Below, piece by piece: positions 8,612-25,598 of a stretch of DNA of 39,943 nt (position 1 is the stretch's first letter; every line of letters begins with the position of its first letter). The stretch covers positions 1-39,943 of the IMG/VR virus record IMGVR_UViG_3300048793_000066, one strand, 5' to 3'. Below the pieces are notes generated by a model, which ran no database searches, was not told the DNA's origin, and was given only the letters and a program-made list of their open reading frames with translations. The stretch is from a virus. The position numbers and the translations under genes were made by a program.

Positions 8612-8929
8612 GTGTCCGATACGCCAGAAATGGTCCCCTTGGATTTCCTGCTGACCGCATCAAAGAAGTCACTCGAAGACGCCATGCTCAATCGATTTTC
8701 AGAATCGAGCAACCGGCGGAAGCAAATATTGGAATTGCTCGACTCGTGGGCGGAACGGCGAGCGGAGTCACTGCTGCTGACGTGGTTTCTGAACCACGGG
8801 AACGAGCTGATGGCCACCATAACTCTTCCGCCACGAGTAACAGAAGTGATACCACTCTTGCGCGCCCGGGCAGGACCTCTCTCGGCGGAAGAGTTCAGGG
8901 ACTCCCTTAGAAGTCTTGTGGAATCATAG
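8612..8929 (+). CDS. The only rightward gene, helical protein of unknown function
   Basis: A 105-residue protein starting at a GTG with GGAGG 9 bases upstream. The frame is open further upstream, but that part covers the promoter. The sequence is helical and charged (MVPLDFLLTASKKSLEDAMLNRFSESSNRRKQILELLDSWAERRAESLLLTWFLNHG), with no membrane segment and no motif I recognise. Standing alone on the opposite strand, back to back with a Cro-like gene, is the place of a lysogenic repressor or of a gene expressed from the prophage. It has no obvious HTH, so a repressor partner, an immunity factor or a defence protein are all possible. Confidence 0.7.
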   Translation: MSDTPEMVPLDFLLTASKKSLEDAMLNRFSESSNRRKQILELLDSWAERRAESLLLTWFLNHGNELMATITLPPRVTEVIPLLRARAGPLSAEEFRDSLRSLVES

Positions 8930-10964: not shown

Positions 10965-11269
10965 TTCCTTGTCAGCACCCACTTGATCAGTTCGAAGGTC
11001 ACGACCCCGCCGGCCGAGAGGACCGCTGCCATCACCCAGTTCTTGATCGTCAGAATCCCGCTCTGTTTCGATTGTTCCTTCGAGGCGTCCTCGAGGACCC
11101 GTATCCTGCTGTGAGCGGCATTGATGTCCTTCTCCGCCTTCGACACGACGGTCTGTCTCATGACGGCCTCGGATTCGATTTGCCGGCGCTGCTCGGCCTT
11201 CAGATCGTCGATGGCGCGCAGAACGAACAGCCGTTCCTCGCGCCACTCGCCGCTCGTTTCCGTGCTCAT
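10961..11269 (-). CDS. XhlA-like coiled-coil membrane protein, candidate holin partner
   Basis: A 102-residue protein. A long charged coiled coil (about 8-75) is followed by a C-terminal transmembrane segment (NWVMAAVLSAGGVVTFELIKWVL). This is the layout of haemolysin XhlA / holin-associated proteins encoded next to endolysins. It overlaps the endolysin start and its own start overlaps the upstream stop (ATGA), so three lysis genes are translationally coupled. Role by position and topology only. Confidence 0.65.
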   Translation of the reverse strand: MSTETSGEWREERLFVLRAIDDLKAEQRRQIESEAVMRQTVVSKAEKDINAAHSRIRVLEDASKEQSKQSGILTIKNWVMAAVLSAGGVVTFELIKWVLTRK

Positions 11270-11550
11270 AGATGGAAACGGTCGGAGACGTGAGCGATCT
11301 GCGCGCTTACCTCCGCGAGCTCCTTCGCGAGTTCCGAAATCCGCAAGGTCATCTCCGCTCCGGTCGATTTCCGCAGTACGTCGAGCTGCACCAGAATCAA
11401 TTCGCGATGCACGAACGGCCGCAGACAGTCCCGATAGTCCGCGTAGTCCGCGTCTTTCTTCTCGTGATCGCGCATCTGGACCATGACGGAATACGCCACG
11501 GCAGCTAGACGTCCCTCTGGCGATGGCTCACTTCTGATTCTTCCGTCCAT
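11266..11550 (-). CDS. Hypothetical helical protein
   Basis: A 94-residue protein with a strong GGGGGGAAAA leader before its ATG. It is predicted helical and charged (QMRDHEKKDADYADYRDCLRPFVHRELILVQLDVLRKSTG, then LRISELAKELAEVSAQIAHVSDRF). It stands between the last tail gene and the coiled-coil lysis gene, to which it is coupled by ATGA. No family is recognised; a tail-fibre or lysis accessory role cannot be told apart. Confidence 0.6.
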   Translation of the reverse strand: MDGRIRSEPSPEGRLAAVAYSVMVQMRDHEKKDADYADYRDCLRPFVHRELILVQLDVLRKSTGAEMTLRISELAKELAEVSAQIAHVSDRFHL

Positions 11551-18720: not shown

Positions 18721-19896
18721 CTAGCTCAATCGGACCGCGAAGAAATCCGACTTAGTGTTGCGAAACACGTTCTGGACGACGAGGTGCGGGATGCCCGCAA
18801 CGGTGACGGTGTTTTCCACGCTCTGCGAAAATCCCGTGACCGCCTTCACACCCTCAAGTTCCCCGTAGACATTCGGCGTCTCGTCGCACAGCACGACGGG
18901 CAGGAGTGAGTATCCGCCGTCGAGATCCGGCCTCCAGTCCCAGCTCGATGGAACGACCCATCCGTAAGGCCAAATTCCTCCGGTAGAGGTGCTGGTGTTG
19001 ATGGACGAGAATCCGCGCCACACTCCTGACACCAGGCGCAGCAGAAGGACGGCTTCGGAATCCGAAGTCAGCCCTCCAGTCCTTCCGATCGGGAACGCGG
19101 CCATCTCGGCTCCGGTGTAGCTCCATCGCCAGTTGGTGCTCGTTGATGCGGGCTCGCTTCCCAGAAATGCCAAACTTCCACCCACGACCAGCGGATAAGG
19201 GAATGCCCCCGGAGCCATGTAGGAAGCCATCAAACCGAGATAGCAACTGGTGTACACCGTGGAAACCTTCGCGATGACGATCACGCGGCGGCCGTTCGCG
19301 ATGAACCAAAACGGGATCGTCGAGTTCCATAGCGGGAGCACGGGAGATGGAACTGACTGCCCTGAACCGCCGACGTATCCCGCCTGCATGTTGAACGCGA
19401 GCGCGGAATCGAACGCGGTGAAGCCTCCCAGCCTCCAGTTGTAATAATCGGCGCCCACGTCCGAGAAAACGCTCGCGCCGACGATGATTTGGTCGAGACC
19501 GCCGTTGCCGGGAGCCTGCCAGATCATCTCCACGCCCGATGTCCGCCGGAGTGAAGTCCATTTTGACGTGACCGCAAAAGTGAAGGCATCGGTAGCAACG
19601 AACGCGGTCAAGCCGGCAGTGATCGTCAGATTTGCCTTCGTGGAAGTGAATGGCGTGCCCACCACGCCCGTTCCGAGGGACCCGGAGACCGACCCCACCA
19701 CGCCGAACGCCGTGGCGCTTGTGAACGTCACTGTGATCGTTTCCACTACACTTGCCGAGCCGCCCTGCGCGTCAATCGTCCCGTTCCCAGTTCCAACGAA
19801 CGATGGCGTCAGCGCCATGCCCTTCCCAGTGAGAAACGTATCGAGCTGGTTTAGCAAGTCGGCATAATCGGTCGCCGACCCGATTAGTACGCTCAC
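18721..19896 (-). CDS. Tail structural protein, paralogue of neighbour
   Basis: A 391-residue protein starting at a GTG that overlaps the tape-measure stop (GTGA at 19893-19896). The N-terminus shares 'ATDxxDLLxQLdTFLT' with the next gene, but it carries an inserted 70-residue domain rich in Thr and Val (ITVTFTSATAFGVVGSVSGSLGTGVVGTPF) of Ig-like character. The C-terminal part resembles the neighbour again in its SxxSWDW-rich pattern. Immediately downstream of the tape measure is the usual place for distal tail proteins. Confidence 0.75.
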   Translation of the reverse strand: MSVLIGSATDYADLLNQLDTFLTGKGMALTPSFVGTGNGTIDAQGGSASVVETITVTFTSATAFGVVGSVSGSLGTGVVGTPFTSTKANLTITAGLTAFVATDAFTFAVTSKWTSLRRTSGVEMIWQAPGNGGLDQIIVGASVFSDVGADYYNWRLGGFTAFDSALAFNMQAGYVGGSGQSVPSPVLPLWNSTIPFWFIANGRRVIVIAKVSTVYTSCYLGLMASYMAPGAFPYPLVVGGSLAFLGSEPASTSTNWRWSYTGAEMAAFPIGRTGGLTSDSEAVLLLRLVSGVWRGFSSINTSTSTGGIWPYGWVVPSSWDWRPDLDGGYSLLPVVLCDETPNVYGELEGVKAVTGFSQSVENTVTVAGIPHLVVQNVFRNTKSDFFAVRLS

Positions 19897-22559
19897 GTCT
19901 GGCTCCTTCCCAGTGCTTTGCCCGCAGCCTTCGGATTATTTGTCAAATGCTGAAGGATGATCCTGCCGGCGTCCTTCGAACTGAGGTGATGCAGAATCAG
20001 CCCTTGGTCGAGCCCAATGCCGAGATTGATGCTCGATGACGAACCGCTACCCCCGTCGGGAGCGACCAGTCCGCCATCCGCGAATTTCGGGAGCGAACGG
20101 TTTATCTCTCCGATCGATAACGGCTGCATTCCGCGATTGATCGCCTCGAGGTTGTGCGCGCCGATCGCGCTGACCGCCGATGCCTTCACTACAAACTCTC
20201 CCGCCGAGAGCCGTGCGGGGATAGAGTCCGCAGTCGGACCGCCAGTCCCCTTGATGAGACCGCCGCCGGCGAGCCCGACGCCGGGAACTAGTCCCCCACC
20301 AGAAAAGCCCACGGCGGCAAGTAGTTTTTTGACCGCGAGCTCAACGAGCATCTGCACGATCACTTTTTCGATGGAGCCGACGATGCTGGCGGCCAGATTT
20401 TCAAACGAACGCGCCACAGTCTGCGTGCCGCGGCCGACGGTCTCGAAAAAATTCGTGAAACTGTTGGTCAGTCCACTGTCCACTGACTCTCTGAGTTTTT
20501 TAATGTTCTGCCCGGTCACATCGATGTTGGTCTTCTGAGTATCCACATTCTTAGCGGCTCCTGCCGCTGCAGCTTTGTCGGCATCGGATCCCGTGACCTC
20601 GGCCCTCGCCGAAAGTTGCTGGGCAATTTGCTGAAGGATGACCAGTCGGTCCTGCTCGATTTTCTTAATATCCCGTTCGCCCTTCGCCTCAAAAATCTGC
20701 CCGTCCTTGACCCGATTGAGCACTTCGTCGCGCTTGTCGGAATTCTCCTGCAGCGCATCCTGCTCGGATTTTTGCTGTTGCTCGAACGCCAGCGTCTGAA
20801 GACGCGTGTCCGTGAGCTTCTGAACTTCAGCCGCGGATGTACCAGAGGACGCCAGCGCGCGCGGATCCTGCATTTCCTTGCCTTCGGCGATGATCTTCTG
20901 GCGCGCGGCTTCGAAGGTTTTTCCCTGCGCGACGAGCAACTCGTTCTCGAACGTCAGGCGCTTTTTTTGAAGTTCGTCCACCGCTTTGGACTGCTCCATG
21001 TTGAGCGCGGTAATTTTCGTCGAGGCGGCGATCTCGCTCTCCTGCAGCTTGGTCTGGAGGTCCATCACTTTCGTGAGAGCCTCGATCTTGGCCGCGTTCT
21101 GTTTGTCCTTGTCCTTGTCGGTCGTCGCGTGCCTGGCCGCAACGGCGGCTTTTTCAGCCGCGTCGATCTGGGCGGTGATTTCGCGCTGCGTGATTCGGGA
21201 CTCCTCGGCGGCGTCCGTTGTCACTTCGGCCCTGCGGTGGTCGAAATATTCCTGGAGCGAGATTTCGCCCTGGTCGTACTTCTCTTTCTCGATTTCCTCG
21301 GTTTGCTTCGCGTTCGCGCGGACGAGCGCGAGCTCGTCCTGCAGGTATTTCTCGAACTGAGAAGCCGCCGCTTTCTGCGCCGTATCGGACGTCGCCTTCA
21401 CGGGCAGACTTCCCGATCCCTCTTTGCCGGCGGATCGTTTCGGCGGAGTTGGATTCGACGCGCCGCCGAAAATATCCAGGTTCGCTTTGTCGTTCTCGTC
21501 CTTGAACTGTTTCTCGATAGCCCCGATTTGCGCCGCGAAATCCTTGCCGGCGTTCGTCAGACCAAGCTCCTTCATTTTCGCAAAAGCGCCGGTTATGTTT
21601 CCGGTGAGCGCTTCCCCGAGGACGATTGCCGAACCCTTCATGTGGGAAATCGCGAAGTCCCAGGCGGTCTCCATGATCGCGATGGACTCCGCGACTCTCT
21701 GCCCGGTCGTGACGAGTCCGTAGGCCACTTTTTCAACGAGCGACCCGACTCCCTCGCCGAGCGCTTTAAACCCGCCGCCGGCTCCGCCGTTGATGACTTG
21801 AACGATCGCGCTCGATACGTCCGTGATCGCGGGAATCAGTCCGACCTCGAATTGCGTCGCGGCGCCCTCGGCCTCGGACTTGAGGTCCTCCATCGATTCC
21901 TTCATCGTGAGCATCGATTGGGCGGTCTGATTGTCGAGCAGGATGCCCATCTTCCGAGCCTCGGCCTCCACCTCGGCGAACCCTGAGCCCGCGAGCTGCT
22001 GCAAAACTGGAAGCGCTGCCGCGCCGCCACGTCCGAGCAATTGCTGCGCAAGCGCCGCTCGATTCGTTCCTTCCGCCATTCCTCCGAGGCGGTCGGTGAC
22101 GAGTTTTATTTTCTGGTCGGTGTTCAGTCCAACAAAATCCTTCGCGGAAATTCCGAGCTGCTTAAATGCCGCGACGGTTTGAATATTGCCGGTCTGAAAG
22201 TTGAGAATCGATCGCGAGAGGCGGACGAAACTCTTGTCGACCACTTCGGCGTCGACCCCGAGATCTCCGGCTGCCTTGTGGAACACGCCAATGGTCTGGG
22301 CGGACGCGCCCGTGATCTGCGCGGTGCGCGCTACTTGCGTGCCGGCATCGAAGACGCTCTTTGCGAATGCCGCAACGCTATAGGCGACGGCGCTGAAAGC
22401 AATGCCCTTCAGCGCTGTCGAGAGATTAAGGGAACTGGCTGTCGTCGCCACTTCCTGCGTCTTGAGATTTTTGAGCTGAGAGCCGAGTTCCTTGATTGCA
22501 GCGGCCACCCCAGCATCTTCAGCGGTTAGCTTGACCTTTATCTCTGGCGCGTCAACCAT
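19893..22559 (-). CDS. Tail tape measure protein (lambda H-like)
   Basis: An 888-residue tape measure that sets tail length and may help eject DNA. Residues 1-60 include an N-terminal helix and a hydrophobic patch (GIAFSAVAYSVAAFA). Residues about 380-690 are a charged, helical, coiled-coil rich region. Residues about 715-830 hold the SFENLAASIVGSIEKVIVQMLVELAVKKLLAAVGF hydrophobic helix and the Gly-rich GLVPGVGLAGGGLIKGTGGPTADSIPARLSAGEFVVKASAV ending, which is typical of lambda-type tape measures. It abuts the GT frame directly (TGAATG). Confidence 0.95.
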   Translation of the reverse strand: MVDAPEIKVKLTAEDAGVAAAIKELGSQLKNLKTQEVATTASSLNLSTALKGIAFSAVAYSVAAFAKSVFDAGTQVARTAQITGASAQTIGVFHKAAGDLGVDAEVVDKSFVRLSRSILNFQTGNIQTVAAFKQLGISAKDFVGLNTDQKIKLVTDRLGGMAEGTNRAALAQQLLGRGGAAALPVLQQLAGSGFAEVEAEARKMGILLDNQTAQSMLTMKESMEDLKSEAEGAATQFEVGLIPAITDVSSAIVQVINGGAGGGFKALGEGVGSLVEKVAYGLVTTGQRVAESIAIMETAWDFAISHMKGSAIVLGEALTGNITGAFAKMKELGLTNAGKDFAAQIGAIEKQFKDENDKANLDIFGGASNPTPPKRSAGKEGSGSLPVKATSDTAQKAAASQFEKYLQDELALVRANAKQTEEIEKEKYDQGEISLQEYFDHRRAEVTTDAAEESRITQREITAQIDAAEKAAVAARHATTDKDKDKQNAAKIEALTKVMDLQTKLQESEIAASTKITALNMEQSKAVDELQKKRLTFENELLVAQGKTFEAARQKIIAEGKEMQDPRALASSGTSAAEVQKLTDTRLQTLAFEQQQKSEQDALQENSDKRDEVLNRVKDGQIFEAKGERDIKKIEQDRLVILQQIAQQLSARAEVTGSDADKAAAAGAAKNVDTQKTNIDVTGQNIKKLRESVDSGLTNSFTNFFETVGRGTQTVARSFENLAASIVGSIEKVIVQMLVELAVKKLLAAVGFSGGGLVPGVGLAGGGLIKGTGGPTADSIPARLSAGEFVVKASAVSAIGAHNLEAINRGMQPLSIGEINRSLPKFADGGLVAPDGGSGSSSSINLGIGLDQGLILHHLSSKDAGRIILQHLTNNPKAAGKALGRSQT

Positions 22560-23224
22560 TCAACCCCTCAAAATCTCCGGAAGATCCGGCGCTTTCGATT
22601 GACGTTTCTGGTGCGGCGCGAGTACTGCCCATACGATTAACTCCACCTCGTAGTTCCGTCTCGCCTGGTCGCGCAGCCTGTCGATGAATCCGAGGAAAAG
22701 ATCTCGCAACGGCCAGTCCATCACTTCGTCGTACCGGCCAGGATCGTACCCGGCCATCTCCCGAATCAGTGTGGCAAACTCCCCAACGTCTCTGCCTCCG
22801 CGTTCGCGGTAGGACTTCCCTTTGCGCGTCGGTTCGAAGATTTCGGGGAATTCGGCGCAGATTTCTCCCCTAATGAAAAAAAACCGATCACGACGCTGAC
22901 GATCGCCTCGCGCATGGCGTTCTTTTCGGTCTGGTCCGTGATCCCCGCGAACGCCGCGGCGTTGCGGTCCGCCTCCGCGCGATTCCACTTTTTTCCCGCC
23001 TCGGTCAGGCATCCGGCGAGAACGAACGAGGTTCTGCCCGAGACCAGTATCTGCGTGAGCAATTCCTCTGCTTTTTTTTCTGGAGTTCGCTTGCCGCCAG
23101 CGTCGGCCAGAATGTCCATCGCGCCCGACAAACGCAGATGAGCGAGGATGTAATCGTCCTGACTGGCCGTAAGATTTTGAGTTATTCCCTCGAAGTCCCT
23201 GCCGTCCAACTTCAGAGTTTCCAT
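22560..23224 (-). CDS. Tail assembly chaperone, GT-type frameshift form
   Basis: The G frame can be extended by a -1 shift at GGT-TTT-TTT-TTC, after which the reading continues FIRGEICAEFPEIFEPTRKGKSYRERGG...GRYDEVMDWPLRDLFLGFIDRLRDQARRNYEVELIVWAVLAPHQKRQ to the stop at 22560, next to the tape-measure ATG. This extension is like the T domain of lambda GT, and gives a product of about 220 residues. The position and -1 direction match the rule for tail chaperones in siphoviruses. The shift itself is inference from sequence. Confidence 0.8.
22766..23224 (-). CDS. Tail assembly chaperone, G-type short form
   Basis: A 152-residue protein ending ETLGSLPH. It contains TPEKKAEELLTQILVSGRTSFVLAGCLTEAGKKWNRAEADRNAAAFAGITDQTEKNAMREAIVSVVIGFF, the small helical domain expected of a tail assembly chaperone placed just before the tape measure. 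In lambda such proteins bind the tape measure while the tail tube is assembled and are not in the virion. A fraction of ribosomes should shift to the -1 frame at the T8 site to make the GT form. Confidence 0.85.
   Translation of the reverse strand: METLKLDGRDFEGITQNLTASQDDYILAHLRLSGAMDILADAGGKRTPEKKAEELLTQILVSGRTSFVLAGCLTEAGKKWNRAEADRNAAAFAGITDQTEKNAMREAIVSVVIGFFSLGEKSAPNSPKSSNRRAKGSPTANAEAETLGSLPH
22876..22885 (-). promoter_or_regulatory. -1 ribosomal frameshift site (T8)
   Basis: On the coding strand GG-TTTTTTTT-C is read GGT TTT TTT TCA in the G frame. Slipping one base back gives TTC ATT AGG, which joins the extension frame of GT. A run of eight T is a good slippery site of the XXXYYYZ kind (TTTTTTC). 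Confidence 0.75.
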
Positions 23225-23254
23225 GTGTCCTCCGGGTCGGCGCCGCCGCCCGAT

Positions 23255-23329
23255 TCATCTCATAAAAAAAATTGCGGGGAGCCTCCCCTTGAGAAACACG
23301 GGAACTGTGCGCGTCCCGTGCTTCTTCAT
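23255..23329 (-). CDS. Possible 24-codon leader peptide
   Basis: A frame MKKHGTRTVPVFLKGRLPAI... of 24 codons, ATG at 23329, with GGGAG 6 bases upstream and TGA at 23255. It runs over the whole terminator structure between the tail tube and tail chaperone genes, including its T8 tract (ATT TTT TTT ATG). If translated, ribosomes would melt the terminator. It could also be a chance frame. No homologue is known to me. Confidence 0.35.
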   Translation of the reverse strand: MKKHGTRTVPVFLKGRLPAIFFMR

Positions 23330-23343
23330 CCGCAGCTCCCCGC
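23263..23343 (-). terminator. Terminator with competing stems
   Basis: Read leftward: arm GCGGGGAG (23343-23336), an inner hairpin CACGGGA/TCCCGTG (23320-23297), then CTCCCCGC (23281-23274) followed by AA and eight T (23271-23264). The outer 8-bp stem plus T8 is a good intrinsic terminator. A local GGGGA/TCCCC hairpin (23288-23276) shares the last arm, so two alternative shapes exist. It lies after the tail tube gene and before the low-abundance chaperone gene, which suggests it lowers downstream expression. Confidence 0.6.
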
Positions 23344-23372
23344 CGTCTGCACTTCAAGGGATGCGTCAGTCC

Positions 23373-24167
23373 CTAGAAGAACGTTTCCAAATAGAACGGC
23401 GCGCTCGGGTGATTCGCCGTGTCGTCCAGGATGTTCCCATCGAGCGTCCAATTCCCGTAGTCATCGGCGATGAGCCCGATTTGGCCGTTCGGATTCAGAT
23501 TGCAGCGCCAGATGTCGCACTGGATTTTTTGCCCGTCGACCGGATCCGGAACGAAAAGCAGATGGCCCTGCACGAACGGAATCGTCGCGCCGGCGACCTG
23601 GTCGAAGTTCCCGACGAGCGTCTCGTAGGTGACGGTCACGGCGTGCGAGGCGATCGCCGAACCCGCCGGGATGTAGAACAGTCCCTTGATCGGATCCATC
23701 AAAATGTAGTCCGTGCCCGCGACGAGAACGACGGCGTTTGACGTGAGGATCGGAGGGACTCCCGTGGAATCGACATTGATTTGCGCCACGCGGAAAAATC
23801 TGCCGATCGCGGAGGGCGCCTGCGCCGCGGTGATGAGTACCTCGCTCGTTATGGTCGCGGCGACCTGCGCGAGCGTCGTCTTGCCCGAACTCATCGAGAA
23901 AATGGCGGCGTGCTTGGAACTGAAGTCGGTGCCGACGATGGTGAGCTTCGGCTGGCGTTTTTTCAGAGCGGTCGCGATCAAAGTAACGCTTTTGTTGATC
24001 GACTGGTACAGCTCGGCAATGTCGTCCTTCAGGTCAAGTTCAAACTTGGTGCAGTTCCCCAGATGCTGGAAGCCGGTCGGGAGCCCGCTCGCTGGATCGA
24101 ATATATCGAGCAGCACCGAACCTTTTCCGAGCATCGGGACATGAGGTACTGGATAGGTCAAGGGCAT
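23373..24167 (-). CDS. Major tail tube protein
   Basis: A 264-residue protein with an AGGAGG site before its ATG. It starts MPLTYPVPHVPMLGKGSVLLDIFDPASGLPTGFQHLGNCTKFELDLKDD, and has IATALKKRQPKLTIVGTDFSSKHAAIF in the middle: the 'GxLxlxxxxxxGxxxGfxxLGnCtxxxl' start is what I know from siphovirus tail tube subunits. It polymerises as hexameric rings around the tape measure. A hairpin terminator follows, in keeping with its need for high expression relative to downstream genes. Confidence 0.88.
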   Translation of the reverse strand: MPLTYPVPHVPMLGKGSVLLDIFDPASGLPTGFQHLGNCTKFELDLKDDIAELYQSINKSVTLIATALKKRQPKLTIVGTDFSSKHAAIFSMSSGKTTLAQVAATITSEVLITAAQAPSAIGRFFRVAQINVDSTGVPPILTSNAVVLVAGTDYILMDPIKGLFYIPAGSAIASHAVTVTYETLVGNFDQVAGATIPFVQGHLLFVPDPVDGQKIQCDIWRCNLNPNGQIGLIADDYGNWTLDGNILDDTANHPSAPFYLETFF

Positions 24168-25526: not shown

Positions 25527-25552
25527 CTGACTCCCCTTTCACCTTCTGCGTA

Positions 25553-25579
25553 GACGGGCGATGCCTTCCGCCGCCCGTC
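25553..25579 (-). terminator. Hairpin after the capsid gene
   Basis: GACGGGCG and CGCCCGTC form a perfect 8-bp stem with an 11-base loop, just after the capsid stop at 25599. There is no U-tract. Given that capsid mRNA must be abundant, protection of its 3' end is as likely as partial termination. Confidence 0.45.
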
Positions 25580-25598
25580 ACACTGAGAAACAACCGTA

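Follow-up and report, generated by a model that had tools for sequence, protein, structure and literature searches.

Conserved hairpins behind the tail tube and capsid genes of a group of uncultivated soil phages

Gene order and features of the tube-chaperone junction

The window, i.e. the whole stretch of DNA analysed here, is an IMG/VR virus record of 39,943 bases from an uncultivated soil phage group. Its late genes are encoded on the minus strand in the order large terminase, capsid fused to protease, tail terminator, tail tube, G-like chaperone ORF, -1 frame, and tape measure. The gap between the tube gene and the chaperone ORF (Table 1) is single in the contig; no second copy of it was found, neither as a repeat nor as a mobile copy. 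No PHROG or Pfam match was obtained for the G-like ORF or its -1 frame, and the name is based on its place in the gene order, the slippery run, and the overlap of the two frames, all of which recur in relatives; by the rule used, a T7 run was picked as the slippery site at 42 of 57 loci.

A tube search of viral contigs yielded 69 related loci, most of them with a gap and a chaperone start. The nearest two relatives are L004 and L005 (tube identity 83-84%). At some loci (L013, L035, and several distant ones), extra genes apparently separate the tube hairpin from the chaperone gene. The same search in genome contigs gave a single bacterial match for this phage group, a 159-kb contig of a metagenome-assembled genome (MAG) from Terriglobia (Acidobacteriota) with a 75% identical tube (L095), whose tail module hints at an Acidobacteriota host.

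Table 1. Positions of the genes, hairpins, and frames discussed in the text
Feature	Position	Strand	Basis or remark
Tail tube gene (major tail protein with Ig-like domain)	23373..24167	-	phrog_807, E 1.6e-28; TAG stop 23375-23373
G-like tail assembly chaperone ORF	22766..23224	-	position; slippery site and long -1 frame kept in relatives
T8 slippery run (-1 frameshift, G to GT)	22876..22883	-	T frame ends at 22560
Tape measure gene	19893..22559	-	several PHROG tape-measure families, e.g. phrog_2854, E 5.5e-20
H1 hairpin, AGGGA/TCCCT	23357..23374	-	5' arm in tube stop codon; similar stop-codon hairpin in most relatives
H2 main hairpin	23274..23343	-	5' arm GCGGGGAGC 23343-23335; 3' arm GCTCCCCGC 23282-23274; fold and paired changes
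Extra hairpin nested in H2 loop	23290..23328	-	fold; peculiar to the window phage
Short alternative hairpin GGGGA/TCCCC, GGGGAGGCTCCCC	23276..23288	-	shares the H2 3' arm; -7.8 kcal/mol
T8 tract after H2	23264..23271	-	AA between stem and T8
24-codon ATG frame	23255..23329	-	ATG 23329-23327, TGA 23257-23255; judged a chance frame
H3 hairpin, CGGGCGGC..CCGACCCG	23233..23252	-	ends at chaperone Shine-Dalgarno; nearly invariant in relatives
Strong hairpin without T tract	25548..25583	-	just after capsid stop 25601-25599; equivalents in nearly all relatives

Among all candidates for a hairpin followed by a T tail on the coding strand of the window, H2 with its T8 ranks first in stability. The outer stem is GC-rich and comprises 9-10 bp; the best structure reaches -44.8 kcal/mol, and the RNA of positions 23240-23360 folds at -49.4 kcal/mol (z = -2.2 against shuffles). 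A first-pass annotation of this DNA had pointed out the outer stem, the T8 tract, and the shorter hairpin on the same 3' arm; all three lie where it placed them, and folding of the minus-strand RNA confirms the outer stem (P = 0.998) and a stability above that of shuffles. For the local H2 hairpin z is -4.9, in a GC-rich sequence where local minimum-energy z-scores are uninformative (mean z about -1); helix-score nulls were therefore used instead. The nested hairpin of the H2 loop is absent from L004 and L005, whose loops are short. Both sequence features of an intrinsic terminator are found in the window, i.e. a GC-rich stem-loop and a U-tract, the latter as AA followed by T8. No Rfam family scores above its gathering threshold in the window; lax thresholds return weak snoRNA matches, far below gathering.

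Conservation of the hairpins among relatives

Across about 25 related gaps, the H2 stem is kept with paired changes. In an alignment of 23 sequences, 88% of the cells form standard pairs compared with 72% after shuffling, a value that none of 500 shuffles reaches, and 47 cells carry two-sided changes versus 18 in shuffles. Sliding the registers by 1-3 columns lowers the pairing to 44-58%. This alignment is anchored on the GGGAG core of the stem, which favours pairing; hence shuffled gaps were passed through the same helix selection as an additional null. The mean helix score of the tube gaps is 28.1, against 18.8 in the identically selected shuffles (sd 0.6, maximum 20.0). Since helices are selected by pairing, the null for the native-minus-swapped difference applies that selection to shuffles as well; by this measure the tube hairpin (-7.2) does no more than reach the limit of the null distribution (mean -5.7, minimum -7.2). 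The marginal difference is in keeping with a GGGGAG/CTCCCC core common to most loci, and the paired changes are found mainly outside this core. Because its stem is kept with paired changes across relatives, H2 is, on this pattern of substitution, a real and conserved RNA element; the paired arms noted by the first-pass annotation thereby extend to related phages.

A comparable picture emerges behind the capsid gene, where the gaps of nearly all relatives hold strong hairpins that lack a U-tract and frequently come as a tandem pair. Here the helix score is 29.5 versus 19.6 in identically selected shuffles, and the native-minus-swapped difference is -11.2 versus -5.7. Downstream of 67% of the capsid genes and 47% of the tube genes the helix score exceeds the 95% background, as compared with at most 23% for other genes, a comparison weakened by the tight packing of many other junctions, which leaves little gap for a hairpin.

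The T tract is less widespread. It has eight residues in the window, six in L004, and five in L005; sporadic T runs occur in L014 and L022, and most relatives have none. The hairpin is hence more widely conserved than the terminator signature: a stable, conserved hairpin without U-tract occupies the tube gap in most relatives as well as the capsid gaps, while the tube hairpin of the window has a U-tract. Six reference phages possess a distant homolog of the tube. The hairpins of Suso and Cr-LKS3 are strong but lack a U-tract, and that of Clavibacter phage 33 is followed by TTTT; no hairpin was found after the tube gene in the remaining three (RHph_X2_30, Tom33, and Summit). Judged by these phages, the post-tube hairpin is not universal.

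Interpretation of the junction

Siphophages require many tube subunits and few chaperones and tape measures, all from one late operon. What can be seen directly in the sequence is one conserved hairpin 3' of the tube gene and another 3' of the capsid gene. We consider it probable that, in the late operon, an intercistronic hairpin behind the gene for an abundant virion protein keeps the expression of the next genes low relative to that gene, through partial termination, protection of the 3' end of the upstream mRNA, or both. By its stem and T run, the element resembles an intrinsic terminator in the window, L004, and L005, and for the window phage partial termination is the most likely mode of action, with the AA between stem and U-tract as a point against termination. 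The U-tract of these three phages would turn the tube hairpin into a partial intrinsic terminator, and partial termination would let fewer transcripts pass into the chaperone and tape measure genes. In relatives without U-tract, and at the capsid sites, the hairpin would block 3'-5' exonucleases, whereby the upstream segment would be stabilised. The first-pass annotation had proposed a terminator that sets the ratio of tube protein to chaperone and tape measure under the control of a translated leader. A terminator-type hairpin with a conserved stem could indeed set this ratio; the leader and the switch did not hold up, as set out below.

It is possible, albeit rather unlikely, that in all these phages the hairpin only protects the 3' end of the mRNA or marks a processing site, and that the U-tract of the window is incidental. 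Such a role would suit the stem that most relatives keep without U-tract and the capsid hairpins, which lack one as well; moreover, hairpins with a protective role have been described in E. coli, and the puf operon offers a case of segmental stability (PMC6238624). However, the U8, T6, and T5 behind the stem in the window, L004, and L005, together with the sporadic runs in L014 and L022, are what a terminator predicts.

A further reading treats the gap as a composite regulatory RNA, in which H1, H2, and H3 control chaperone translation and H3 acts as a protein- or ribosome-binding operator. We regard it as doubtful. H1 does recur at the stop codon, and the 12 nt that begin at the stop form better pairs with the downstream stretch of their own locus than with the stretches of other loci, a result matched by 0 of 2000 permutations. 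H3 is nearly invariant and adjoins the Shine-Dalgarno sequence; an exact-pattern scan of viral contigs for CGGGCGGC..CCG(T/A)CCCGGAGG found it in 24 contigs, once each and at the tube-chaperone junction only. Just one of these contigs (L092) lies outside the tube set, and a tube is encoded directly upstream there. Yet no fold that hides the Shine-Dalgarno sequence was seen, no Rfam family applies, no ligand is known, and H3 hardly varies, which places its pairing beyond the reach of covariation. That a conserved three-part RNA module jointly sets the tube:chaperone ratio, with H3 as a site-specific translational operator, seems similarly unlikely. The composite reading is compatible with the intercistronic-hairpin reading given above, and both could be true.

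An H1-like apex (GGCGC..TTCCGGCG) follows the tube stop in L016, L018, L020, L024, L026, and L096 (phage Suso); Suso shares it despite a tube identity of only about 25% with the window. As a firm motif, the apex was discarded: a scan for TGGCGC..TTCCGGCG returned four contigs, three of which (L019, L020, and L026) were already in the tube set, and the site in the fourth (L102) has no tail homology around it.

Very little speaks for a ribosome-controlled attenuator, in which translation of a 24-codon leader would melt or reshape the terminator and so set the tube:chaperone ratio. This was the proposal of the first-pass annotation, and its components are present as described: an ATG, a GGGAG upstream, and a frame that spans the hairpin. 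However, this GGGAG, six bases upstream of the ATG, is the conserved 5' arm of H2, and the ribosome site is thus buried inside the stem. The start and most codons of the frame sit in a loop region whose length in the window far exceeds that in L004 and L005. None of the 24 relatives examined, L004 and L005 included, possesses an equivalent, and the idea of a conserved short ORF fails on this point: L004 has no frame at the leader position, and the ATG found at a comparable point in L005 starts a frame of 244 codons that runs into T. In the relatives' gaps, frames appear at random positions and with random start codons and lengths, and the 24-codon frame therefore amounts to no more than chance; on this comparison, it is a chance frame without a role. 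Neither does the fold ensemble offer a switch, with P = 0.998 for the outer stem versus about 1e-8 for the inner hairpin, and forcing the latter costs about 10.7 kcal/mol (-34.1 vs -44.8). The fold analysis revealed no antiterminator conformer. The outer and inner hairpins use one and the same 3' arm ahead of the U8, and hence neither would prevent termination. A leader-peptide attenuator is characterized by a conserved, translated leader ORF and by mutually exclusive terminator and antiterminator structures; the junction displays neither.

Read-through of the tube TAG into an open frame running to the end of the T frame is rejected as exceedingly improbable: the tube frame does stay open past the TAG and through the gap into T in the window phage and L005, but it is soon closed in most relatives, gap lengths fall into all three phases, stop codons vary, and the openness shows no excess (median 19 codons vs 20 and 27 in the other frames).

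Comparison with known systems

By analogy with described phages, the arrangement of a hairpin behind the tube gene has clear precedents and is a known phage strategy; the first-pass annotation had been aware of no described phage tail attenuator of this form, and SPP1 and CKA15 contradict the view that nothing similar is on record. In SPP1, a Rho-independent terminator is predicted at 11,255-11,304, between the tube genes 17.1/17.1* and the chaperone gene 17.5, which starts at 11,363, and another one at 8775-8815, right after the capsid gene 13, with the next gene at 8828 (PMC6316719). SPP1 and the window phage hence share predicted elements at the same two junctions, post-capsid and tube-chaperone. 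They differ in that the SPP1 stems have U-tracts at both sites, whereas in the window group only the tube site of a few phages has one; furthermore, the host groups are different. In the Listeria phage CKA15, ONT-cappable-seq mapped intrinsic termination to a site behind the tail tube gene (PMC12282133). The likeness lies in an intrinsic termination site 3' of the tube gene, which is measured in CKA15 and predicted from sequence in the window; unlike the window phage, CKA15 is contractile-tailed, and its chaperone has its own start site.

The single phage terminator of T7, Tphi, is located after gene 10 and is read through for genes 11 and 12 (PMC5592923). As proposed for the window phage, a leaky terminator thus stands behind the most expressed structural gene, and the downstream genes depend on read-through; Tphi, however, acts on T7 RNA polymerase and follows the capsid gene, not the tube gene.

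The hairpins after capsid and tube genes, mostly without U-tract, suggest that the tuning of stoichiometry by mRNA structure is common and does not necessarily involve termination. In E. coli operons, stabilised upstream segments have their 3' ends at hairpins without U-tract (PMC5927463), and for the puf operon of Rhodobacter, segmental mRNA stability is described as contributing to complex stoichiometry (Klug 1987, as cited in PMC6238624). These are cellular operons, for which the effect was shown by RNA mapping or decay, whereas the window phage is known from its sequence; as in the relatives of the window phage, their hairpins are stable, lack a U-tract, and stand behind the gene with excess mRNA.
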